Shown in pieces: positions 4,201 through 31,800 of a stretch of 64,000 nucleotides of DNA. Each line of letters begins with the position of its first letter. Within the stretch, counting starts at the first letter, position 1. This DNA comes from Bolinopsis microptera (lineage: Eukaryota; Ctenophora; Tentaculata; Lobata; Bolinopsidae). Both the position numbers and the translations under genes were made by a program. The DNA lies in assembly GCF_026151205.1 (NCBI RefSeq), contig NC_087076.1, forward strand, positions 9,028,902-9,092,901, written 5' to 3'. Under the pieces are notes generated by a model. The model was not told the origin of the DNA, searched no databases, and saw nothing but the letters and a program-made list of their open reading frames with translations.

Positions 4201-7200
4201 AGACTCCACGCTGAGCCAAGAAATATAATTTCTGGCAGACCAATCACCGTGGCAACCATTCAAGTTACCATAGCAACCATTTTAGTTACCATAGTAACTG
4301 TTATAATTGCCTTAATTTAACTTTAGATGTAGCTTGCTTGTGGTTTCTTGCATTTTGTAGTGCCGAGCTGCCAAATATCTGAATATATAAACAGTATGCA
4401 CCGAAGTTGAGGGTTCTTAGAAGAATGATTACTGTGTAGAATACAATTTGATTACATTTAGAATTGTTATTTATATTTTGAAACTTAAATTTTTTTGTAC
4501 TGAAAAGTTCAATTTTCTAAGGTTCATATTAGTGAGCTTTCAAAACGAAATCTGTTTCAACGATCAGGATTGGTAATTTTTGTAGTCGTGATTAATTTGA
4601 AAATTATTAACTCTTTGAGAGCAATGTCAGTTATTTGTGTAACACAATTTTATATGTAAATTATATATGCAGTGATTTTTATTTTTTCCGTCAAACATGA
4701 GTGTAGCTTTTATAAGTTCTCAAAAATAAGATGCCATACTCCTGAAATAAACTAACATTTTTTTAAATGTAAAAAAAGTAAAACTGTTTCTTTTCCTCTC
4801 CTGATATCCGTGTCTGTGCATGTGACTGTCTTCTCTCCTTTATTCCTCTCTCAAGTGTTCCTTGTTACCATGGTAACAGTGTAATGTTACCATGACAACC
4901 GTGTAATGTTACCATGACAACCGTGTTATGTCACCATGACAACCGTGTAATGTTACCATGACAACCGTGTTATGTCACCATGACAACCGTGTAATGTTAC
5001 CATGGTAACCGTGTAATGTTACCATGACAACTGTTCCCTTCTCTGAAGACTAGTCTATCCGTCAGGTCTAAAAGTGTCCTATCCGCTAAAAGTGTCCAGT
5101 CAACAAGAAGCTCAGTTCGGGAAGTGAGTGTCCCTATTGGTGGGGGCACGATGCCTGGTGGGGACATGGACTTGGAGCAGCAACTCCGAACTAGGCCACA
5201 GTCTAATAAAAACTATGACAGAGACTAGTAACCTATCTCACCATTTCTTAACTGTTGTTTTTGTACATTTTGATAGGGATTAGAGAGGATAAAAACTGTA
5301 AACTTGGACCTTCATTCGTGGAGTTATGGAAATTACTTATATCTTGGTGACCACTGAATAAAAATGTAACAAATAATCCCTTCTCACCTGACATCCTTCT
5401 AGCTAATTAACATTTTGTTTTGTACTAATAGTTTTTAACCACGAGATTGAGGAATGTGTTATAGAGACATTCCTCAATTCACCAGATACTTATTGTATTG
5501 TATTCTAAACTCTATGAAATTCTTTGTAAACACTAAGAGCTTCCAATTGTATATAATTGTGTTTGTTTGGAGAAAATGGAGATAAATGGGATCAATGTCA
5601 AAATTAAGAATAGAATGAACCCCTTTTTTGTTTGACTTAAACCTTGTAACCATGGTAACGGCTTATTAGATAGAAGTCTTGTAAAACTTAGTCTGCAAAT
5701 AAAATAAAACAACAATTATTATATTTAACATTAGCCAAGAATGTGAATATATGGATTGGAATGTTATTAAGATGGTTGATAAAATCCTGAATAAATATAT
5801 GATAACATGCTTACTTATTTACAACGTTTAAAATTTTCTATACTACTGTTACCATGGCAACACTACTGTTACCATGGCAACACCACTGTTACCATGACAA
5901 CACCAGCTGTTACCATGACAACACTACTGCTACCATGACAACACTACTGTTACCATGACAACTCTACTGTTACCATGACAACACTACTGTTACCATGACA
6001 ACACTTCACTACTGTACCATGACAAGACCATGACAACACTACTGTTACCATGACAACACCACTGTTACCATAACAACACACGTCTAACATTAGTAACCCA
6101 GGCTGAGGGGAGAGAAAGGGTTCATGGATCCAATAGAGAACATGGCAGCAGAGGAAGGAACGGGAGTGCAGATGAAGAAAGTGAGTCTGAAACTGAGTGA
6201 AGCAGATAAGAAAGCTCCTCTAATGTCCCGACCTGTTCACATCTCCGACTTTAGCAAGTAAGTAGCGACTCTGTTACGTGGTATGGCGCCACCATATACT
6301 TTTAAATTGGTTGGAAGTATCGTATAACTGTGGTAAGCAACATCATTGCTTTTGCTTTACTTATAGATTTCATATTTAGTCTTCAAATTGTGTAGTGTGT
6401 ATGTATAATTAACGATAGCTTTTTGTAACCAGACGGCGATATCACATGACAAGTGTAAGTTTCCGTTGATTTAAAGCTGTCCTACACCCCCACATTTCAT
6501 CCTACACCCCCACATTTCATCCTACACCCCCACATTTCATCCTACGCCCCCACATCTCATCCTAAACCCCCACATTTCATCCTACACCCCCACATCTCAT
6601 CCTACACCCCCACATTTCATCCTACGCCCCCACATCTCAACCTAAACCCCCACATTTCATCCTACACCCCCACATCTCATCCTACACCCCCACATCTCAT
6701 CCTACACCCCCACATCTCATCCTACACCCCCACATTTCATCCTACGCCCCCACATCCCATCCTAAACCCCCACATTTCATCCTACACCCCCACATCTCAT
6801 CCTACACCCCCACATCTCATCCTAAACCCCCACATTTCATCCTACACCCCACATTTCATCCTACACCCCATATTTCATCCTGCATCCCCACATTTCATCC
6901 TACACCCCCACTTTTCATCTTACGACCCCCACATTTCATCCTACACCCCCACTTTTTATCTTACGACCCCCACATTTCATCCTACACCCCCACATTTCAT
7001 CCTACATCCCCACATTTCATCTATAATACACCCACCAACCTAGCCCTCGCAGCATTGCAGATTTCTTTATTCACTGTTTGAGCTTCTTTTTCGGGGTTTA
7101 AGCTTTTTAATGTGGTTCCTAAGTCTCGTTGAAGTGACGCACATTGTTACCATGACAACACTGAAATTACCCACATTGTTAGCCGGGATGCATCCTAATT

Positions 7201-13825: not shown

Positions 13826-16800
13826 ATGAATGTAGAAGTCTTACTCTTGGCACTGATTGGGATTGTCATAGCGGATAATACTTGTACTTACATAAACCAG
13901 AACAAAAACGTGGTTTCTGTCAGCAAAGTTTCTAGAAGTTCTGGTGGCAACACAGAAGAGATTGATGTTCAAGTTGGGGAATCAATAACAATTAGGTATG
14001 TTAATACATGTGTTATAATTACCCTTTTCTAAGTATATTCATTTATGATCAATTCAGGCATTGATATTTTTCTGTCCTTCATACCTTGATTTTTAAAGTA
14101 GTAATCAACTGGCTTGATGTTACTTTTGCAGTTGTGTAGATACAACCAACAAAGCATTCGAGTATGGAGCAAAGACTGTTTACAGTTGTGATGAGGCATC
14201 CACTGACAAGGTCAATCTTCCTCTCTGTGTTGGTAAGTACAAATTCACATTCAATTTAATACCACTTTTGTTCTACACCTTTTTCTGTTCAAAGCTAACA
14301 CAACAAACCAATTTCATTTATTGAGGATTTCCTTATTATTTTCTAAAGATATTGCACATTGTATATAAGAGTGCATCCATTGGCTGTCTACTAGATTTTG
14401 TCAGCATTGGAATGTCTCATTGTCTTTCACGATCGAATATTAGAAAGTTTTAAGCTCTCACATTTTCAGAACTTAAGGCAGTATTGAATTGAGAGTAATT
14501 GTAGTGAAGTCTGTATATCAGTTTACAGTGAAATATTAAGTCATTAGGTGGTCTTGCATTTCCGTGAATACAATGTACACTCTTTACCAAACTATCATAT
14601 CATATACCACCAATAACGGATAACCTTATTGGCTTATTGAGTTAGGCACATACTGTAATACTATATTAGGCATATGTTACTAGCTATTATATTAGGGATA
14701 TATTACTTTTATTTGCATTTTTATGCCCTCTCTTGCAATTTTGGGATATTTCATTCAATCTTCCATGTAAATTCTGGACTGTAATCAGGCAGCACCTATA
14801 TTGGTCTAGTATTTCGTTTACACTTATAATCCGCCCAAAAGAATAAGCTTATCCTTAAATTTTAAATCTTAAATATTATGCTTAAAAGCCCTCCAGAAAG
14901 AAAATTTGTGAACAGAAAAGTTGCAATAAAGAATTTCATTGTTACTCAGTATCTATTGTATTAGGACATGACGTGTTGGGTTCATTGTATACAGAAGATA
15001 CATACACAATACACATCAGGATGTGAAGCGTTGCTGCGCGCGCATTGGAGGACGCAGGCCCTTCTTCTGCAGCTCTGTCTGAACACCAATTATTCCATAT
15101 AAGGAATAATGGCAGATTTCTGAATTGTTCGACTTTCAGGATGAGGATCGTTTAAGAGGTGATTTTGTCTATTGTTACTGAGATAGTCTGCATCTAGTGA
15201 CATCATTGAGGTCCTCAACTCTGAACTCTAAACTCTAAACTCTCTACTCTGTACGAAGAATTTGCCTACTATATACTGTTTACAGTGTTTTGAAGATGCT
15301 AGTTTCGCATAAGAAAGCGGGAGTTCTAGGTTATGGGGCGATTTAATGGGTTTCCGGGACTAGGTTGAAATGCAATGTTTAATGTTATTATTAAAGGGGC
15401 ACAGTTTCACGTGATGATTAGCGGTCCAAATGGCCCTTGTAACTGTAATGCAAGCTAATTGTTCCTGGTTAGAAATGTGCAGTTTTCGCAGCATTTCATC
15501 AGATATGTCTGACAATCTTAAGATCACTCAACACTAGACACTGATTTGTAGCGCACTTGTACAATGTGTGTTTATCAATACTTTATCACCTTAATTCTCC
15601 GTGTTTTAAAGAAATTTGAGACATGCAATAATGACATTCAGATGAGTTCAGATGAGGTCACTACAAAGTGAGGAATTCTGTAATATGAATTGTAGACCTT
15701 GGGAATCGCGGTGTCATGGTATTAAATCAATACTCTCCATAGAATCTGTTGCTATGGCAACCCTTCATTAGAGATGTCCCTTGTAAAGTAACTGAACGCA
15801 TTATTACACACTTTACATGGCCCTCAACTGGATTGCTGAAATGGTCACATCTCTTATAGTTATTTATATATTAGTAAAATATCTCAGTTAAATCTGAGAT
15901 ATTAGGATGTATCTCCATTTATGATTAAAGAAAAAGCTTTTAGACTTTAGAATGCTATTGCAATTCCATTAGCCATCTTAGTTAGAAGAAAGATCTATTA
16001 TGTTAAAATATGTGTCGTGATATGAACCTCTTACTAGTCAGTTGAAACTAGAATATAAAACTGGTATCTACAGAGACAGAGACACTAATAGTTAATACAG
16101 ATTACAGGTTATCAATAAAGGGTTGTTTCTGAAGACACACTGCTATATTATATACAAAATAACTTTATAATTAACAGTAATCTAATCCCCCCTCCCCTGG
16201 GTATTAGGTTGAGTATTGTGACTACAACCTGTTAACTTGACTATATAGCTGTATTCTGCCGTGTTTTTCTGACTAAATAACTACAGATCTAAGTTTAATT
16301 GGTGTCACAGGTTTTCAGAATAATAAATCTCCGAATAAAATGTAAGCCCTTCTACTTCAGTATCCTAATTGTAACCTGATCTCGCTCAGATAAGTGTCAG
16401 ACACTGTTAAACCTGGACCCAGACCAAGTGTCAGTGTTTGTACTAACAGACGGAACTGTGGTTACTGATCAGACGTTAGCTAAAAGTACACCTGTAACCA
16501 TACATTGCAGTCAAGATGAATACGCTCAGATGTTCAAACAGGTTGACACCCAGGCGTGTGAACTGTGGAACAGTGACGCTCTCTGTAAAAGTAAGTCAGG
16601 GTGGGGTTTAGTGAGGTTTAGTGGGGTTTAGTGGGGTTTAGTGGGGTTTAGTGGGGTTTAGTGGGGTTTAGTGGGGTTTAGTGGGGTTTAGTGGGGTTTA
16701 GGGGGTTTAGTGGGGTTTAGTGGGGTTTAGTGGGGTTTAGTGAGGTTTAGTGGCGTTTAGTGGGGTTAAGTGGCGTTTAGTGGGGTTTAGTGGGGTTTAG

Positions 16801-19800
16801 TGGGGTTTAGTGGGGTTTAGTGGGATTTAGTGGGGTTTAGTGGGGTTTATAAAATAATATCACTAGCGTCATGAAATTTAGAAATGTTTTACTAGAAATT
16901 ATTTATAAAAATTTGGCTTTTTGCCAATCTGCCCGTTAAGTCCCTCCCATTAGCCTGACTATCCTGTCATTTTACACTTACATGACAAAGTTTAAATCAA
17001 GAGTTGCTACTTGAACTGCATGCCAAATGCCAGGACCTATCTTTATAAGCACTTCTGCATGTTTGATATATTTCTAAACAGAATATGCATCGTTGGAGGT
17101 GTTAAATTCCTTGTTTATGTTTAGAAATGGGGCGTGTCAAAAACAAAATTATAAGCCAAACTTGTTGGAAATAAGACATAAGCTATTCAATTTATTAAAT
17201 AATTGCCACATCTAACTAAAACACTCCACCAATATTACACAATTTTTTTCTCCGCATCAGACGAACTTTGGTCGACAACATGAAGATGTTACACTTGATA
17301 TTATAGCGGCAACAAAATAAAGAATTACCTTTCAATTAAAAGAGAAAACTTACAGCTGCGCCCTAACCTGGAACCAATTATTGCTCCCTAGACAATAATG
17401 ACTTGAGAATTAGAATCAGTAAAGCAAGAGAATTGTAGTCAAGTTGGTAGTGAAGGGTTTCGAACTGTGACGTTTTTATTGATAGTTATTGGTGAATTGT
17501 TCCGTACCGCTTGTTTGGAAGGGTTACGGGGTTAATTATTATAAGAATAAGAAAACACCGCTTCATGGTTATAATAAGCCATTATTTTTCTCTCCGACAA
17601 AAATGTTGTCAAGAATAAACAATATTCAGTGACCAGAAGAGCTCAGGACATGGTATCCAAAGAAAATAGATCGAGCAATCGTTATCACAAATAACAATTT
17701 CACTAAGAAATCACGAAGAAAATTCTATCAAAAATGTACAGAACAACAAAAATAAACAAAAATCCTTCTATTAAATTTCCAAATGTCCAATATATATAAT
17801 ACCTCCCAGTTCCCACCTACATTCTACAACCCCCTTTTCCCTCAGAAATGTGCACCCTCTCCTCCTACTCGCCCCTCAACACTGACCTCGCCAGTACTGG
17901 AGTAAAACCCTCTCTAGCGGACCCACAATACCTACAAGTTGGCTTCTCTGTCTCCATCTCCTGTAAAAGTGCTGATTACGCTCAGCCCTTGGGAGCAGCG
18001 TCATCCCACACCTGTAACCAGGATCACGGGAACGATGCTATTGTCATTGAAAACTGTAACAGTAAGTGTGATGTTATTTATTTTAAGTGCAGGGTGTTCT
18101 ATTATTATATATAATATGTGCGGATGTGATTTGCTTTTTAAATAAAACGGTGTGGGATAATTTATGTCTGTAGAAGGGTTTTTGTAGTAGGTGTGAACGG
18201 GGGATTCTAAGATTTAGAGGTTGGCCAGCATAGCGACCACAACTGGTTACCTAGCAATTGAGACTAAAATTCAATAATCTGATCTTAGGGTTTTGTAACG
18301 TTATTGCATTTATTGTAAACAAGCTAACAACCCTTCAGAGATGTGCAGAGTTCCAACACCTCCCACTGACACTATCTACCAGGCTACACAAGATCAACTC
18401 AGACAGGGACAAGCTTTCACTGTCAAATGCACAGGTAAATTATATCATGTTACATATTTCATATATTATTTCATATTAGATTTCTGTGTACAAATTCGGT
18501 AATTTGTTCTCCTTGTTACTTAATCTAAGAAGAACATTTCTTTGATAATAATATTACATAATTTCCCGAAAACAATGTTATATTTATCACAAAGAATGCT
18601 CTACTTCTCTGATCTCTCTAAAATACTCCTCCCACAGGAGCCCTGAAGTTCCCTATTGATCAGACAGTTAGAGAGGTAGAGTGTCAGAGTGATGGTACTT
18701 TTCACACTCCCTACCCTACTTGTCAAGGTAAGGGCATGTTATCCTGTTAGAATGTGATCGTTTATATTTTGTCGTTTATCTGTATAATTATTTAATCCAA
18801 ATGCGGACTGATAGGAAACCTGCAAAACAAAGTACCTAGTGAGCTGTGAGCCCTTAAATCACCAGAGATTCAGGTAAAATCAGCTCCGAGCCTCGGATCC
18901 AGAATAGTATACCACGTGGTATAACGCGTGGTATAACACGTGCTATACATATCAGGTGTTGTGTGTCCCACCTGGTGATAACATGTAAACACCAGTGTTT
19001 CTGTTCCACCTAAGTGTACACCTGGACCTCACACTCTCACCTGACTGAGCTGCTATATAACTCTAATTTAGCCTTAACCCATTAGGGACGACGAGTTTTA
19101 AAGTTTGCCGATTTTGATGCCGTTTAACACACTAGGTCACATTACAGCAAAAATGAGATATCCAAAAAAGCTAATCTGTATCTCGTTTACTTTAAAAGAT
19201 ACAGCTATGGTCGCATACGACCCACTCGTCCGGGTCGCAAACGACCCATCACGGTTTTTCGGCTATTACTTCTGAAACAAAGACGTTAGGATAAAATAAA
19301 AACTGTAGCATAAGTTAAAAACTTATGGTCAATACTGTGTGACTCTAGCTTTTCAAAAATAGAGAATTTGGGTCATTAACGACCCACTCGGCTCACTTGC
19401 TTATTACTACATTTGTCCATGTAACTTCTTGAATTCAGCCTAAAACATGACATCATATGTGCAAAAACGCCTCTCAGCAAGTGATTATCATCATAAACTG
19501 CGAAAAATCGGTTAAATGGGTCATTAGCGACCCACTAGGACCACAAAATTGATTAATTAAATATAATGTTGTCAAACTATTACAAATATTATTATAAAAA
19601 CATGTTATATCTTGGTCATTACTCCTGTACGTTGATTTAACTTTTAAAATCGACCAACTGGGTCAATAACGACCCACTCGGAAGTTGAACCACGTCATTA
19701 ATTATCAGTATCATGCTGTTCCACCATCAAGAAAGACACTCGTAGGTCTTAACTCCACACGGACCACGGTGGCTGACCACTAGCCCTCCTGAGTCTGGAG

Positions 19801-22800
19801 TCTCAAGGTGATCTGCAGATCACGTCACCCAATCACTGACAAATAATGGGCAGAATTGGATTGATAGGTAGGTGAGTTTATCAGCTGTTACTACACGACC
19901 GTAATGTCGTGGGACAACAAACAACGTGCCTATCTTTTCCCGATTCCTAGTCCAAGAAGAACTATACAACTGCTGGATTCAGATTTCAGATGGCTGCATC
20001 TACTCATTTCGCAGCTTCCTTTCTTTACTTCTTTATAGGGGCCGTTCACATTGACATAATATAATTACGTTATCACTTATTGGACAATTTTTAGCCCCGC
20101 CCCCCCCCCCACCCCACCACATAGCTATTATGTCAAAATTACACTAGCGTAATCATTTGGAAACCCCCCTCCCCCTCGGCCGATGACGTAATACTTGGTT
20201 TCGTTTTGAAAGCTGCCTCGTTGTTGCGGGGTTGTTACCCACAACAAAGTAGTTGTCTGAGAGATTGCAGGTTGCAGCACCGCCAGCCAGATGGGGGGGG
20301 GGGGGTGCTTTTTCCTTGTCCTTCTTCGCAGAGCTGTAGATTTAGCCATCTGAATGCAGCAGTTGTTTAGTTATTCTTGTACTTTCTAGGAATGTCAAAC
20401 AGATTGGCATGTTGGATTAGAATATGCAATTTGACCGCTCTTCTTTCAGAATTTACCCAAGGTTACAGGATATCTCGTAAACTTCGTTCAGGGGATTTTT
20501 CTTGAGTGACCGTGGGACCCTGGGTCTCAAGCGGTGAGTTGTAGCAGGTCGTTTACCAAGATACGAAATTGACGAAAAAGGTAACAGAATCTAATAAGCA
20601 ACAACAACAGCATGGCTATTATCTAGCAAGTTAGGAACGAGGGCCGATCTCCTTTTCTTTTGCGACACGGCCACGGTCCTTTCGGTACAGATTTCCACGC
20701 ACCATAGTCAGGACGCAACTCCAGGCATATGCAGTCGTGTTATTCTCGCAGCTCTTTGATGAGTGATGACTGCCCTTCAGTTGGCCCTGGATCTCATAAT
20801 GGCTAGTGGTCAGCCACCGTGGTCCGTGTGGAGTTAAGACCTACGAGTGTCTTTCTTGATGGTGGAACAGCATGATAATTAATGAAGTGGTTCAACTTCC
20901 GAGTGGGTCGTTATTGACCCAGTTGATCGATTTAAGAAGTTAAATCAACGTACAGGAGTAATGACCAAGATATAATATGTTTTTATACTAATATTTGTAA
21001 AAGTTTGACAACATTATATTTAATAAATCAATTTTGTGGTCCTAGTGGGTCGCTAATGACCCATTTAACCGATTTTTCGCAGTTTATGATGATAATCACT
21101 TGCTGAGAGGCGTTTTTGCACTTATGATGTCATGTTTTAGGCTGAATTCAAGAAGTTACATGGACAAATGTAGTAATAAGCAAGTGAGCCGAGTGGGTCG
21201 TTAATGACCCAAATTCTCTATTTTTGAAAAGTTAGAGTCACACAGTATTGACCATACGTTTTTAACTTATGCAACAGTTTTTATTTTATCCTAACGTCTT
21301 TGTTTCAGAAGTAATAGCCGAAAAACCGCGATGGGTCGTTTGCGACCCGGACGAGTGGGTCGTATGCGACCGCAGTTAGTAAACAGCGTCTAGCTCTGTT
21401 TGTGAACATTTGATTATCACGGGCTTTTCATTTGTGCCAAGGAAATCGTTGCCCGCAACTATTTTGTTCTCAAAAAAATAAGCCTACATAAAGTTTTAAT
21501 GTCCCAATCAAGGCAAGAAGTTAAGTGGAATATTTTCCAAATATGACGACTAATTAGTCTAATTATTTAATTGTTAGTGATTAATTGGGTCTCGGCTGGA
21601 AAGTCAATAATGTAGCCCAATAACTTTTGAGCATATGTGCGAAAGATTCGTGGCGTTTAGTATTTTGGTTTGTCCTCTGTAGCCTCTAGAAAAGGTGGGT
21701 CGTAAACGACCCTATCGTCCCTAATGGGTTAACATATATTATATTACTCTATTAGAATTTATAAAATTGTATCATGTAGTTTCTAGATCGTAGAGTAAAA
21801 CTTTTAAATGAAGCTTTCTCACGGTTACCTGTTGTATCAAATTAATTTAGTAAAAACAAATTTAGTGTTCTTCATTTAGTGTTCTTTATACTGATGATTT
21901 AATACGCAGTAGCACATAAACTTGATTATCATAACTGATTTATTCTTTATAGTAGTAAAAACTGATAATAGATTGTAAAGTGGATTAATAATTAAGAAAC
22001 TACAGAACAGTAAGATTAATAGGTAAGGTATGATTGCTAATCAGCCCCTCTATGAATTACCCATTTAACCAGCTACAAATCTCCATCCCTGTCCAAGCAA
22101 TGGTCTCCCCAGAATACCCTGACCTCTATCATTAACCCCCTCAGCTACGTGTAAGATAAGCGCTACAGACTCCGCCACTACAAAGCTAAACAAGACAATA
22201 GTAGGAGGACTAGCCCAAAAGGAATCAGTGGAAGTGTCGTGTGCTGATGTTAACTTGTTGTTACCCTTCGGGTACAAAACACCCTGGGTTATCACCTGCG
22301 GTCCTGATAATCTGGATATTGATGTACCTGCTTGTCAACGTATGTTACTCAATATTTACATTCATGTCATTGTATTTAAGTTACAAATTTAGAAAAATTA
22401 ATGAAATATAAAATTATGAGCTGGTGCTCCCCACATTACTATAACAAATCTCAGTTATCATATTATACCTAATCCCCTTTATATCTATTGTTTTATTTCA
22501 GAAACCTGTGCTGTACCGGCTGCTCCCCCTCACGCTACACTGTCCCAAGTAAACAGTACCCGTTTGAAGCTCAGAGAGCCTATAACGGCTACCTGTAAAG
22601 AGTATTACAGTTACGAGGTGGATATGGGCACCTCTAACACTAAGGAGTTTACTTGTTCGGATACAAGTGGCAGCCCTACCGTGGATATCAACGACTTTTG
22701 TTATGGTGAGTGGGATGATGCAGCTGACTGTAACTAAGTGTTACTAGGTGTTACTAGGTGTTACTAAGTGTTACTAGGTGTTATTAGGTGTTTCTAGGTG

Positions 22801-25800
22801 TTACTAAGTGTTACTTAGTGTTACTAGGTGTTATTAGGTGTTACTAGGTGTTACTAAATGTTACTAGGTGTTACTAGGTGTAATTAGGTGTTATTAAGTG
22901 TTACTAGGTGTTACCAAGGTAAGTGGGAGATACAACTGACTCAATTTTTGACTAAAATGTACCCTTGTTCATCGTTACACCATAATGTTCTGAAAAACTC
23001 ACGCAAAACTTTCGTTATTCTCGTAAATCAAGGAAGTAATTGAATCTACATTTAAAGTTACATAATATTTGGAGCATGTCCTGTAAGATACATGCTTGAT
23101 AAGTATGAGATGTACCAAGGGTCGGATGCTGAATGCAGATAGGATCTTCAATCTTCAATCTTCATCTGAGAGCAAATAATTGGAGTCTCAAACTCTAACC
23201 CGTCAGTAACTCGTACAGTGATATTGCTACATTGGTAAATTGTTCTTTGTATTATCTAAATAACTTCTAAGGATTATATCGCCTGTGTGACTGAGATTCT
23301 AATTGAGATTAGCGTGCACTTTACCCCACCCATAGTGTCTTCTTAAACACTTACCTGTCTAGTCTGATCTCGTAAAACGGTTACTTGGTGATGTCTAGTG
23401 TTGCTATGGTTACTTGGTGATGTCTAGTGTGAAGTCACAGTTCACACCCTCTTTTTCCCTTTTGAGTAGACCTCCAAAAAGAGGGAGATTTTGTCAAGCG
23501 CTCGGAAATGGACAGCCTTTGATAAAAAAAGTAGATATAAGGAAAGGCTGTTTGTTTGGTATGTTGGTTCGGTTTATCTGTAGAAACAGGTTCAACCGAT
23601 TTAAATAGGAAAAATTAGATGATTTCATCTATTTCTAACGACACCCAATTAATGGTTCCTAAAAATACGGTTGAGGAAATTAAGAATCCGCCATTTGTTG
23701 CAGACTGTAGTCTCTTTCACCCAGTTTTCCAAAATTAGCGAATTTTTAATTGAAACAGTCACATTGTATCCTAGATCATCTGCTTTTCAGTATGAATGGT
23801 TAATTAAGTACGGTTTATCTCTAACCATGACGTTATAACGTTTAGTTCAAGTTAAATTTTCATGTAAATTACAAATAAGTGCATTATAACAGGGAAATAA
23901 TTGACGTCAATTCAACCGTTCTAGTCGTTTTGTCTGAGGATTGAATTAATTAATTATCAATTATTCTACTCATTAGTAAAAGTAATTGCACGCGGAAACT
24001 CTCCCAACCAAAGTAGTGGTACAGTGTGGGAACTGAGGACTGATTAGAATGTGATTGGTCACGTGACACTGATTGTACAGTGGTGTGTGATCATATTGTA
24101 ATTATGTATTATATCATTATTGTATAATTATTAGCTCATCCCATGTTATCATAGTGATCACTCAATTTTCAAACTCAATTTCTGATTTTCAAATTCGAAA
24201 ATGCACGTCAGAGTATGATTGAGCTCATTCCAACTTAATATTACATGTTAATGTAATAGCCCCACTTTAATGTCGCACTTTTTACACTTCAATGGGCCGC
24301 ATTGTAAAATGTAATCAAAGAAACTTATTCAATGTTACTTATTCAATGTTAAAGGTAACATGACCTATTAAAACAAGGCGCCCCCTAGAAAAAGGTGGCA
24401 ACTGGCTATCTACCAACATTAGATATATTCCCCACTGTTTTACCATGTGGCACTACCATGTGGCACTACCATGTGGCACTACCATGTGGTACTACCATTT
24501 GGCACTAACATTATCACATAAGTTACCCTCTCACTGTACAATAAAATATGCTGTGAGGATTGAATGACGGGAGGTAGAATCAGGATCCTGTAGTATATAT
24601 ATATATATGTATAATTGAACACTAAAGTTAAAGGTGTAGTGTTTCACATGAGACGAGGTCAGTAATAAGTTTAGAACGTATCGTATGGTGCACTGTGTGT
24701 GACGTGTGTGCGTGTGTGACCACCCAAATTGGAGTTAGCTCACACAACATGCGTTTCAAACTGGAGCAACCCGGGTCAAATTTCTGCAGTCAAAGTTAAT
24801 TTATATAATGATATTATGTTGAAACAACGAACCCTTAGGTCTGAAATAAAACCATCTACCTTAATCGGGAATATTATGACTGGGATAAAGTGGTGGATTT
24901 TGGAAAATTCCGCCATATTTTTCCCGGTCAAAAATTTTACCAGTCATAAATTAACCCGCAATAATATTCCCGAGTAAGGTATATTCTCTGAAGTCTGAAG
25001 TAACGCTATGAAAATATGTTTCACTGTCGTGACACTGTCGTGACACTGTCGTGACACTGTCGTGACACTGTCGTGACACTGTCGTGACACTGTTGTGACA
25101 CTGTTGTGACACTGTTGTGACACTGTTGTGACACTGTCGTGACACTGTCGTGACACTGTCGTGACACTGTCGTGACACTGTCGTGACACTGTCGTGACAC
25201 TGTTGTGACACTGTTGTGACACTGTTGTCACACTGTTGTGACACTGTTGTCACACTGTTGTCACACTGTTGTCACACTGTTGTCACACTGTTGTCACACT
25301 GAAACAACGAACCCTTAGGTCTGAAATAAAACCATCTACCTTAATCGGGAATATTATGACTGGGATAAAGTGGTGGATTTTGGAAAATTCCGCCATATTT
25401 TTCCCGGTCAAAAATTTTACCAGTCATAAATTAACCCGCAATAATATTCCCGAGTAAGGTATATTCTCTGAAGTCTGAAGTAACGCTATGAAAATATGTT
25501 TCACTGTCGTGACACTGTCGTGACACTGTCGTGACACTGTCGTGACACTGTCGTGACACTGTCGTGACACTGTTGTGACACTGTTGTGACACTGTTGTGA
25601 CACTGTTGTGACACTGTCGTGACACTGTCGTGACACTGTCGTGACACTGTCGTGACACTGTCGTGACACTGTCGTGACACTGTTGTGACACTGTTGTGAC
25701 ACTGTTGTCACACTGTTGTGACACTGTTGTGACACTGTTGTCACACTGTTGTCACACTGTTGTCACACTGTTGTCACACTGTTGTCACACTGTTGTCACA

Positions 25801-28800
25801 CTGTTGTCACACTGTTGTCACACTGTTGTCACACTGTTGTCACACTGTTGTCACACTGTTGTCACACTGTTGTCACACTGTTGTCACACTGTTGTCACAC
25901 TGTTGTCACACTGTTGTCACACTGTTGTCACACTGTTGTCACACTGTTGTCACACTGTTGTCACACTGTTGTCACACTGTTGTCACACTGTTGTCACACT
26001 GTTGTCACACTGTTGTCACACTGTTGTCACACTGTTGTGGCATTCATATTAATCGTCGTTGTACCTAATAATAATGTCTCTCCAGTGTATGCAAAGTTAT
26101 CCAGCAAAACTACTGGTACAGCAAAGCTTGAGCTAAAGGGTGAAATAAACGACGGTGGAAACTACGACAACGGTGATACTGTCGTAGATTTTATAATAAC
26201 AGGTTCGTTTGTTCACTTAAAGTTATTAAATAATACAAAATAATTCAGATTACACAGATTATCTAAGAACTAGATAACATGTTTTATGAAGGAGACAGGT
26301 ACAGACTCTTTATATAAATATTTCTTCTTATTTTCTTTCTTACCAGTTATCTGCCCTATCTGTCTACACTGTTGTATTTCAAAACATACCAATCATATAA
26401 AATACATTGAACAGGAGCAACAACTGATCTGGCGAAGCAAGCAAAGCCGAATGTAGCAGTAGAAGTTGTTGTGGGTAGCTATGAACCACTAAAAGTGGAG
26501 GTGAGGACTACTTCAGTGGATAGTAGTGGGGAGAAGAAGGTTATTATTATCACCGAGCAGGATATCTACCCTGGTGAGCCAACTTAACGTTTTTAGTTAT
26601 CACTTTTACTTAAGGTTTAAATCAAATTATTTACATATGTATAACCATCTTAATTTTCCTCTGCAATGTAGATCTGATTCTCCTCCTCCCCCTGCCAGGT
26701 CCCTCGTCACCACCAGCAGTACAACAAGACTCGGCTAGCTCCACTGTTAATGTTCAGCTCGTACCATCTGCTGGTGATGTTATCTTGGAGAACGTAGTAC
26801 AGGAACATCTTATAAAGTAAGTGTTCTTTATCAGTACATCTGTAGCTAAGTGTTACTAGGTGTTACTAGGTGTTACTAGGTGTTACTAGGTGTTACTAGG
26901 TGTTACTAAGTGTTACTAAGTGTTACTTAGTGTTACTAGGTGTTACTAGGTGTTACTAGGTGTTACTAGGTGTTACTAGGTGTTACTAGGTGTTACTAGG
27001 TGTTACTAGGTGCTACTAGGTGTTACTAGGTGTTACTAGGTGTTACTAGGTGTTACTAGGTGTTACTAGGTGTTACTAGGTGTTACTAGGTGTTACTAGG
27101 TGTTACTAGGTGTTACTAGGTGTTACTGCTGGTGATGTTATCTTGGAGAACGTAGTACAGGAACATCTTATAAAGTAAGTGTTCTTTATCAGTACATCTG
27201 TAGCTAAGTGTTATTAGGTGTTACTAGGTGTTACTAGGTGTTACTAGGTGTTACTAAGTGTTACTAGGTGTTATTAGGTGTTACTAGGTGTTACTAAGTG
27301 TTACTAGGTGTTATTAGGTGTTACTAGGTGTTACTGCTGGTGATGTTATCCTAGAGAACGTAGTACAGGAACATCTGATAAAGTAAGTGTTCTTTATCAG
27401 TACATCTGTTTTGCTCTAAAGATGTGGGTCATATTTATCACGCATATATCTTCAGTTCTGTTTTCTTTTCCATCAGGATTTGAGGAATGTTTGCAACACA
27501 GCTACCATAATGATTTTATATGTGATATCCTGATAAGAGCATTGTCTATGAGTTGCTTTTTTAATGTGTTCAAATTGTCTGATAATCAAAAAGGAAAACT
27601 GCTTATTTAGTAAAAGGTAGCAGTTGTTGACAACCTTTTACTAAAATTGTGAACACTGAACAATTATTTTATTGTTAGAATTTAACGCCTACAAATGAAT
27701 CGTTACTAATGTTGTATTGACGCCGAATTTCTCTGATCGTTCACAAGTTTGACATTAGCTGATTAGCTCATCACAATGTGAATCCAGTGGCATATGCTGA
27801 AATGACCATGACTTATTGTCTTAACAAAATACTGATAAATGCATGTGAAGAGCAGTTATTACTTTCCTCGTTGAGTTATATCCAGTACAATCAACGAATT
27901 GAGCCATATATTTAGAATACATCCTTGCCATATTATACTACTTATAGTTTATATTACTAGCTGTAGTGGTCAGTTACCCACCAGTGTCACGTGTGCTGTC
28001 CACCAGTGTCACGTGTGCTGTCCACCTGTGTCACGTGTGCTGTCCACCAGTGTCACGTGTGCTGTCCACCTGTGTCACGTGTGCTGTCCACCTGTGTCAC
28101 GTGTGCTGTCCACCTGTGTCACGTGTGCTGTCCACCTGTGGTATTTTAGAAAATAGATGACTTCACTCACAGAGCTGTTCTCAATAAATAACAACGTTAG
28201 TGGTCAACACACACGCACTGGCGTGACGACATGCTTGAAAAGAAAGCAGTATTAAAGTAAACAAAACACAGTTTAACTTGAGGGATTTGTAGCGGTGTAT
28301 TTGTAGTTGTGAATGGTAAGAATAGTACAGGTTACTACTGCTTCATAAGAGAGTTGGGATCATGATATGAAGCAAACATTAACTGGAGTTCGTGATACAA
28401 CGTACAAATGATACTTTGTGGATACTTTTTGTTACTATACTAAATACTTGTGTTTATTACAGCACAACTAAGAGCAAGGCTCTTACTACAAAGCAAGAGT
28501 GAGGCTTGTTGGTACTTATGTAGCTTGAATGCAGTGAAGGAGAACTAATGGACGACTTAACAAAAGCATTTTTAAAAAAGTTATGTTAGAGTTGAAAAGC
28601 AAGGCTTTCAAATAAATTAAAGATCCTAAGTGCCACCACAAATGTAACCACCATCGAACTTTAAACAGGTTATTTATAGCCTGTATTGCACAATATTACA
28701 TAAACAATATTTGATATTGCAGGTACACGATCCAATACACCAACAACGGTAAAGATGAAACAATAGATGTCGGTAAAGATGACAGAAAGATACCCATCAC

Positions 28801-31800
28801 ACTTTCTAACTTATTACCTGCTACAACTTACACTATAACAACTACTACAGTGTTACCTGTAGAGTATGGCGGAGAGGGGGACCCTACTTCATCTACTGTT
28901 TACACTGGTAATATCAACTTAGTATTTCTGATTATTAGTTTATAATTTTGTAGTTTAATTGTACTCACTACTCACCACACACTACCTATATAATACAGCT
29001 TGAGTCTTGTATCCAGTGTATTGTTAGACACCTGGTCTCAATCTAGTGTACATTTGTCTGGTTGTAATTTAATTAACTTTCTTCATATCGTTATCACCAT
29101 ATTTGGACATAATCGGTCTGACCATTTGTACATTGCTTGTTCGACTAAGGCACCATCCCACATTGAGATGTATATTTCACATTTGAAAGGTGTTTGTGGT
29201 TTTTGGCGGAATCTTGTATATCTGCACGTTTATTCGCATTGTGTATATAGGATTGTGTTTCACAGTAAGTGTTTCAAGTTTTACTGATAACAGTTGATAA
29301 GCAAGCTGCTCATATTTAATCTTCTTGCTTGTGCCAATAAAGGAGATTTGCTTACGAACTGAATGTAGCGCGCGAGACTTTGATTTGTATTCTCTTTTTA
29401 AGTGTCAATTCGCACTATGACCATTTGCGCGCGCGCGCGCGTTGCGCGCCGCACAGTATGCTCATATCATGACGTATATACATGACATGATCGGCATAAT
29501 GTGCAGTTTTCTTCATTTCCGATTAGAATAGAATATACATCCATCGAATTTACTAAGGCCTAGAGGGAAAGAGAGCTATTTCGTTAACTAATTATTAATT
29601 TTCTTGGATAATGTCGTCGGAAGTTCCAGTGTAATTTACTAACTTACTAAGAAGGGAAGCTTTCGAGTTGTATCAAACTTGTATTCTTACTTGTGTCATA
29701 TTGATCTCACACTCAGAAGTGACACAAATATTTGATTAAAATCATTTCATGAATATATTATAACAAATCATTAAGCTTTATGCTATCAAATAAAGTAAAC
29801 CTTCATATCCATAATCCAATCAAAGTATACGGTTTAAATCGTTGCATAATCAATGATAATACATATCCATAAAATTCTATTAGATGAAACCATGTAAGAG
29901 TTTACGTTTAATAACTTATGAGCATTAAAACTTGTGACTCCGGCTTTAGTACGAAGAAAACATTTATACAACATAAAATAATCGTGGATTAAAAGGTTTA
30001 CGAGAGATTCCTTTCCTTCTTAGCGATCACTTCTGTCTTCTAGATCCGAGAAAATTTCAACTCCGCATTATTCGTACAGCTTCATCATCATCTGGGTTCT
30101 TCATTCAAGGTAGAGTGTCATCAGGAATAAGTTAAGTGATCAAGGTGGAGTGATAATACGAGCACAGCTGCAGTTTTAGGTAGTATTACGAACCTCTCTG
30201 TTGTCTGCAGACTTGTTCCTTACCCCTCATCCTCTTATTCTTGAACCAGTTACACACCTGCATGTAACTCAGATCACACCTCTCTGACAACTCCTTCTTC
30301 TCTAGAGGAGTGGGGTATTTGTTGTTGTTGTAGAAGTCTTCTAGCTGATCTCTAGAGCTCTGTTTGTAGCAGTAAAGGGTCCTCTCACCGTCCCATACTG
30401 TAGCTGGGAAGGGGTATTTCTTTCTCAGTCTGTATCTGTCCACTGCATTGGGAGGCTTGCCTCGTCTGAGTTTAGCGAACCCGTACACAGCTGACAACCA
30501 GAGCTCTTGTAGTGTGTCGTGGTGTTTTGGGGAGAAACAGTTGGTGGCTATCATCTCCATTACCCCCTTGTGGTTGCCTTGTAAGTGAGCTTCTTGGATC
30601 TGGTCAACTAGGCTGGCTTCTTGGTGGTTGTTGTAGTTGTAACCTTGCTGGGCGATCTGGGGAGTGGCGTTGTAAGCTGCTATCTGGTTATCTTTTCTAT
30701 CTTTATAATGTGTACTGAGCTCTTTTATATCCTCATAATCAGTTCTGATCGGGATAGGTATCAAACGTGGGATTGCTTCCTCTGACTTCACAAGGTTGTT
30801 ACTGTAAACACAGGAAGAAGGCGCTGGTAAATCTACTGGCTCCTCTTTAGCATTCTTCCAAACATCAAACTGAGTCTCAGGTCCAAACATTGTGTCTCTA
30901 AAAGAAGCTCCGCTATCAGATTGTTCTGGAGTCTCAGGATCACCAGTCTTTTCAGAACAAGACTCGAACTGACCTTCCTCTGATGGTTGGTACAGAGGAT
31001 CAAACTTATCATAGTGAGCCTTTTCTTGAGGTGAGAGATAAGAGTTGTGGGGATCTGTTTCAGAGTAGGGAGGAGGAGGAGGACTGGGGTAGATACTGGG
31101 GTAACCTCCCCCCGCAGCTTCTAGGGTAGTGTTACCGATGAAGTAGTTGGAGATGTAGACGTTGTGTTCTGCTGGGTGAGTGTTGTAGGGTCCTGCTGGG
31201 TAACTTGTGGGGTAGCTGGGGTTGTAGTACATGTAGTTATCCATTTTGAAGGTGATATCAACGATTGCGAAACTGGAATGATAAACAAAGATAGCTTTGA
31301 AGGTGGGATCATCGGTATTTATATCAAACTGAGGGTAGAGATCGAGTAGACTCTTGAAGATCCGATAGTCTTGTTAAGAAGTAAGGAGTGAGCAAGTGGT
31401 TGATCGAAATGAGGGCTTCAGATAAGGATCACCTGAAACGTGTCACGTGATCAGGAAATCGTATCACGTGTCCTGCAAACCGACATCCAACACACGTCAT
31501 GATTGTATACTTGACACTTAATCCGGTTTCACGGGTTCCTGCACGCATGTTCTTCGCATTCTATCACATCGAGAAGTGCACTGTGGCATGATGAACAAGC
31601 ATACCGGAACAGAATGTCGGAATTATATATTTTAGTTTATTGGAGAGAATGTCTGAGTTTGAAATATTTTGCTTTCAGGACCAAGTCAGGTGGATGAGGC
31701 AACGTTTAAGAGTACTGTAATTGAAGATGCAGTGAAACTCGAGTGGGGGTGGGTCACGCATTTTTCTATTTCAGAGTCGTTGAAATTGCAAAACACTTCA

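Follow-up and report, generated by a model that had tools for sequence, protein, structure and literature searches.

We propose that a dispersed minisatellite has inserted at exon-intron boundaries and in exons with duplication of its target, the array ending up in an intron, and that this has happened recurrently across genes; we give this reading a probability of about 0.6. The locus at the centre of the analysis lies in the window, by which we mean the whole 64,000-nucleotide stretch of contig NC_087076.1 (C5) between positions 9028902 and 9092901, in a genome of 264.65 Mb and 232 contigs. Within the window, an FN3 gene with small exons runs on the plus strand from roughly 16.4 to 34.9 kb. 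The minisatellite has a unit of 10-11 bp, GTGTTACTAG, with GT...AG on either strand.

At exon 11 of the FN3 gene, a segment of 76 bp, here called X, consists of the last 49 coding bases of the exon and the 27 intron bases that start with GTAAGT. It is found three times in the order X-array-X-array-X, with native flanks outside (Table 1): exon 11 lies to the left of copy 1, the native intron (TTTGCTC...) lies to the right of copy 3, and copy 2 is flanked by array. Copies 1 and 2 are identical over 26768-26855 and share more than the 76 bp because both continue into array. Copy 3 carries three base changes (TTG to CTA, CTT to CTG), all of them silent. A genome-wide search with a 146-bp query, which passes over simple repeats and words of very high frequency, found only these three places. 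The flank-to-flank score of the locus was 66, compared with a maximum of 23 in a null of 1824 comparisons; the duplication of X is far beyond chance.

Most of this layout had been recognised in a first-pass annotation made from the letters of the sequence. Its description of an exon end and donor in three copies stands, with the third copy starting at 27334 instead of 27333 and a common intron part of 27 instead of about 35 bases. The sequence of the two intervening stretches agrees with its statement that (GTGTTACTAG)n arrays separate the copies, the alignment agrees with its count of three silent differences in copy 3, and its view of a joint duplication of minisatellite, exon end and donor was likewise borne out. 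The proposed gene name, CCP/FN3, is retained in part: exons 11 and 12 together matched fn3, weakly (E=1.3e-4; 22.5 bits, below the gathering score of 25), whereas CCP found no confirmation, two upstream exons tested against Pfam having matched no family. A genome search for paralogs of the FN3 exons returned none.

Table 1 Features of the exon 11 locus and of the W2 array in the FN3 gene (positions in the window)
Feature	Position	Strand	Description
Exon 11, native copy	26699..26816	+	CAG/GTCCC acceptor, AAA/GTAAGT donor; phase 1 to 2; open frame into exon 12
X copy 1 (native)	26768..26843	+	Exon continues on its left
Minisatellite array 1	26844..27125	+	Unit GTGTTACTAG
X copy 2	27126..27201	+	Identical to copy 1; array on both sides
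Minisatellite array 2	27202..27333	+	
X copy 3	27334..27409	+	Three silent differences; native intron continues on its right
Intron 11, most likely splice form (inferred)	26817..28722	+	GTAAGT donor, TTGCAG acceptor; includes the two arrays together with X copies 2 and 3
Exon 12	28723..28907	+	Phase 2 start fits exon 11; fn3
W2 left, donor edge	22705..22728	+	Aligns with 22918-22941, 3 mismatches and a gap
W2 array, GTGTTACTAG family	22738..22917	+	In an earlier intron of the FN3 gene
W2 right, probable decayed donor-edge copy	22918..22941	+	

Searching the genome with three exact units gave 91 matches in 15 places (control, 0), and a relaxed unit search gave 526 matches (control, 2). We fetched the 14 places outside the window from the exact list and 11 more among the relaxed matches listed; loci were chosen by position and spacing of the matches, ignoring gene content, and the place at C4:6.30 Mb is covered in part only. 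Among the 44 arrays of at least 40 bp defined by the unit, 17 lay between direct duplicates of their flanks, each at p<0.005 in a null of 1824 cross-locus comparisons. In 15 of these 17, no more than 10 bases separate the array from the duplicate on either side, the exceptions being L044 (14 bases) and L057 (26 bases). Counting L041 and L043 as one event, they amount to 16 independent duplicated segments.

Flank duplication was also associated with this particular repeat family. When arrays were defined by Tandem Repeats Finder (TRF), with one method for both groups and with the other-unit arrays of the window and the fetched loci as background, it was found in 15 of 34 family arrays versus 2 of the 58 with other units (Fisher p=2.3e-6). 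In the TRF count, some inner arrays of the compound loci L047 and L048 are entered as arrays of their own; four arrays that score in the unit-defined test, at W2, L055, L057 and the short one at L058, do not score in it. Significant flank duplication was absent in 27 of the 44 unit-defined and 19 of the 34 TRF-defined family arrays. The two positive arrays of other units lie at L037 (4341-4442), where a second probable exon edge of the L037 gene (CCCACG/GTGAGC) is duplicated around a different array with a 33-bp unit (4309-4470), and at L046 (517-649), where an (ACCAGGTA)n array lies between two copies of a segment about 50 bp long (466-703).

The duplicated segments fall mostly on splice edges: nine of the 16 cover such an edge, two lie within exons (L053, L054) and five have no assigned place (L041/L043, L044, L048, L051, L055). 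Donor edges are duplicated at the exon 11 locus (W1), at W2, which is a probable and decayed case, and at L037; acceptor edges are duplicated at L047, twice at the beta-tubulin locus L049, and at L050, L057 and L058, the last with an ephrin-receptor-like exon. The L047 duplicate comprises the acceptor and at least 60 exon bases and is present in six copies, counting the native one. At W2, the flank match was equalled by 4 of 3000 random windows and had a cross-locus p value of 0.0044. A random 60-bp piece of the FN3 gene covers an edge 10.5% of the time, based on 33 edges in a list that misses some exons. For nine of 16, this gives p=8.9e-6 at 10.5%, 3.7e-5 at 12.5% and 1.6e-4 at 15%, with exons outside the window that are inferred and were called with the arrays already seen, not blind. 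Protein-level support is available for W1 (fn3, weak), for both L049 edges, for L053 and for L058, and the remaining exon calls were made from frame and splice motif. Arrays without a scored flank duplication were also seen at splice sites, namely of cadherin (L040), Sm-like (L041/L043), EGF-type (L038) and secretin-family receptor (L059) exons, and copies of exon edges occur within the arrays of L047 (donor side), L056, L058 (donor side) and L044 (minus strand). In L054 (300-700), an open frame crosses the array (period 24, EVLLGVTR) as well as the two X copies, and the repeat may therefore be coding there.

The main rival to insertion is a capture from one side, in which an array already present in intron 11 expanded and took up copies of the exon edge, by slippage or unequal exchange where array and exon have short matches, and the terminal array was later lost. 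Some loci fit it better. On the minus strand of L044, the array starts out of the sequence of the donor itself (GTAAGTTACCAGG), and there is array after the last copy; the right side of L047, L056 and the right side of L058 are likewise one-sided, and introns 5, 6 and 7 of the L049 tubulin gene hold array from the donor or near it with no clear duplication. However, because 17 of the 44 arrays have duplicates on both outer sides, the terminal array would have to vanish completely and do so repeatedly, and the presence of one unit at many unlinked loci would go unexplained. We therefore regard one-sided capture as an unlikely account of the exon 11 locus. Even less credence, indeed next to none, is due to a collapsed or mis-joined repeat: tandem arrays are prone to assembly error, but the pattern is found at many unlinked loci with different X segments, each of which matches its own native flanks.

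From the X-array-X layout, its recurrence, the common unit and the open frames observed across two empty sites, we infer an insertion event, a repair pathway, an order of steps and a splicing outcome. The GTGTTACTAG minisatellite would have inserted at the boundary of exon 11 and intron 11, where a repair or template-switch event would have duplicated the 76-bp target and left an X-array-X product bordered by native exon to the left and native intron to the right. The third copy would have been added afterwards, when array plus X was duplicated in tandem; growth of this kind is in line with two related loci on C4, which have two (L043) and four (L041) copies of X. Repeat sequence could have been copied into a break with staggered ends, or a template could have been switched and rejoined farther upstream, with duplication of the target. 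By eye, and not tested against chance, the junctions overlap by TGT and CT at exon 11, TGTTAC at L047, GTGT at L037 and ACTTAGT at L049, and by the same reading L037 and L049 have one junction apiece that shows no overlap. Together, the layout, the one unit at many loci and these overlaps suggest copying into a break or a template switch.

The insertion would do little harm to the host gene. As the leftmost X leaves exon 11 whole and with a good donor, copies 2 and 3 would be removed along with the array within intron 11, with 26816 joined to 28723. In other genes, an insertion by a splice site would give a longer intron, and one in an exon that holds AGGT could give a new intron. In general, an insert would be neutral or nearly so where the outermost copy at an exon edge keeps exon and splice site whole.

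The first-pass annotation had also proposed that copies 2 and 3 serve as alternative exons, maintained by selection on the peptide AGDVILENVVQEHLIK. On paper the copies are indeed frame-compatible, since G/GT GTT ACT GCT GGT... has the start and end phase of exon 11. In addition, all three differences of copy 3 are silent, and the fn3 score with the alternative exon (22.1 bits vs 22.5 with exon 11) is nearly unchanged, so that breakage of the domain by the alternative exon cannot be claimed. However, the TAG acceptors offered by the arrays are poor. They score -6.6 and -6.5, compared with 2.9 to 10.8 for the 16 CAG acceptors of the FN3 gene, in a model built from the same 16 CAG acceptors only and with leave-one-out scores for these; 789 of 1113 AGs in the FN3 gene region score at least as high as the array acceptors. 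Copies at other loci carry non-silent changes, and the unused beta-tubulin copy (L049) has its acceptor destroyed by a change from CAG to AAG. The two changes from TTG to CTA may be a single event, and similar duplications flank the repeat in genes unrelated to this one. For the amphioxus analogues, RT-PCR results point to undisturbed regular splicing (PMC3087553). Given the weak acceptors, the non-silent changes elsewhere and the recurrence at unrelated genes, we do not uphold the use of copies 2 and 3 as exons, and consider it improbable that they are exons maintained by selection. For annotation, this is a warning that frame-compatible exon copies in such arrays are likely by-products.

The silent changes themselves deserve a separate account. 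Pooled over 12 exon-edge or exon sets, the differences between copies were 13 silent and 9 non-silent; L050 and L057 are outside this pool, their frame being not settable or no exon difference being there to count. The pooled ratio departs from the plain silent expectation of 0.222 (p=2.0e-4), but some excess is to be expected because mutations of the used copy are filtered. With an expectation in which only the used copy is constrained (0.364 silent), p rises to 0.025. Leaving out the exon 11 locus gives 10 silent to 9 (p=0.11 vs 0.364), and leaving out L054, the copies of which may be coding as a frame crosses the array, gives 13 to 7 (p=0.007 vs 0.364). The silent bias is thus a real tendency, of which purifying selection on the used copy together with exchange between copies could give much; weak selection or gene conversion on the copies may be compatible with the pooled excess. 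The proposed selection on the peptide accordingly finds some backing in the pooled excess over the relaxed null, whereas the non-silent changes and the lost acceptor at other loci speak against it.

Two loci bear on whether an insertion can create an intron where there was none. In L053, removing the array yields ...RNVTK/VRVRGEEQDLVEGDM..., which reads through. Splicing from AAG/GTGAGA in the first X to CTCAG/GTGAGA before the second takes 140 bases out and brings back one open frame. The joined piece matched Astacin (E=1.4e-13), with the match in its downstream part, and no astacin paralogs of L053 were found at the search sensitivity used. In L052, an intron of 319 bp, mostly array, has CCCCTCCT[C/G]GCCAGGT at each end and sits between CCCCTCCTCGCCAGGT and CCCCTCCTGGCCAGGT; the spliced piece matched Ammonium_transp (E=1.2e-6). 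Among the matches listed at E<=0.001 are three further ammonium transporters, 35-39% identical, all with uninterrupted coding sequence at the position of this intron, the alignment having been inspected for one of the three. Judged by their sequences, the introns of L052 (ammonium transporter) and L053 (astacin) look like introns newly made by an array between duplicated AGGT sites.

Array sequence accounts for almost all of the L052 intron and of tubulin intron 7, and for only part of the intron at the exon 11 locus. Seven beta-tubulin paralogs have uninterrupted coding sequence at the positions of L049 introns 7 and 8. We checked three paralog loci: the match runs unbroken through residues 1-442 in L062 and through residues 20-424 in L063, and the alignment of L061 was not clean enough to be used. 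These paralogs might be retrocopies, yet L063 is split near codon 20. The match to a more distant beta-tubulin paralog, on C13, is broken into three pieces close to where introns 7 and 8 lie; this paralog may share introns there, and the L049 introns may therefore predate the arrays.

The mirages of amphioxus, which reportedly go back to Canestro and co-workers in 2002, are the nearest published kind, going by excerpts of the later reports. They are described there as tandem copies across splice sites, both donors and acceptors, in several genes and in variable number, and have been proposed as a source of new introns (PMC3087553, PMC3902484). Tandem duplication across the intron/exon boundary is common to mirages and to the exon 11 and other loci described here. 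In contrast, the duplicated unit here combines an exon edge with an array of a dispersed 10-11-bp minisatellite and recurs in many genes, whereas mirage units span the boundary with no shared dispersed repeat described in those excerpts; by the descriptions compared, this composite unit is a difference from mirages. As to copy number, the related C4 loci L043 and L041 differ from each other, with two and four copies of X.

Introns can also be gained by tandem duplication of an exon segment that contains AGGT (Rogers 1989, cited in PMC3087553), and such a case is described in potato RdRp (PMC4974935). L052 and L053 resemble this in that the AGGT of both copies gives donor and acceptor; they differ in that the copies are split by the minisatellite, which accounts for the greater part of the intron in L052 and for much of it in L053. 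The pattern does not apply to the exon 11 locus, where X spans an already existing intron. Direct repeats of 4-30 bp (mean 11.4) near splice sites have been read as traces of insertion in another study (PMC11782384). Flanking direct repeats are present here too, but are up to about 76 bp long and nearly identical.

Like introners, the minisatellite is a single dispersed sequence that contributes to introns of several genes and is accompanied by target duplication. It differs in being a tandem repeat with no conserved ends or coding capacity visible, its mobility being a candidate property only, and in target duplicates that vary from about 15 to 80 bp. We put forward as a tentative possibility that this minisatellite, its unit having GT...AG on both strands, acts in the manner of an introner, creating and lengthening introns genome-wide through templated insertion into exons and exon edges with long target duplications. 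Inserts would be tolerated because the spliceosome removes the array, and the L049 beta-tubulin gene, with several array introns absent from its closest paralogs, would be an advanced case. The literature searched, one collection only, yielded no report of a dispersed minisatellite that duplicates exon edges. How animals come by new spliceosomal introns is a long-standing question for which recent cases are few, and a dispersed repeat with near-identical target duplications beside two apparent new introns makes a route by insertion plus splicing testable.

The window holds several further features. At 16601-16849, a different array, (GTGGGGTTTA)n, begins about 10 bases or less from a donor of the FN3 gene. 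A 480-bp unit at 24820-26039, made of about 200 bp of unique sequence and a CACTGTTGTGA array, is tandemly duplicated at 99%, so that the left flank of another array has been copied into that array. The stretch 19074-21732 resembles an element, with perfect 18-bp inverted ends (TTAACCCATTAGGGACGA) and arms of 499 and 85 nt at 96-97%; its TTAA ends, we presume, recall the piggyBac type. On the minus strand at 30205-31250, opposite to the FN3 gene and inside its span, lies a homeodomain gene (E=5e-14), which looks SIX-like.
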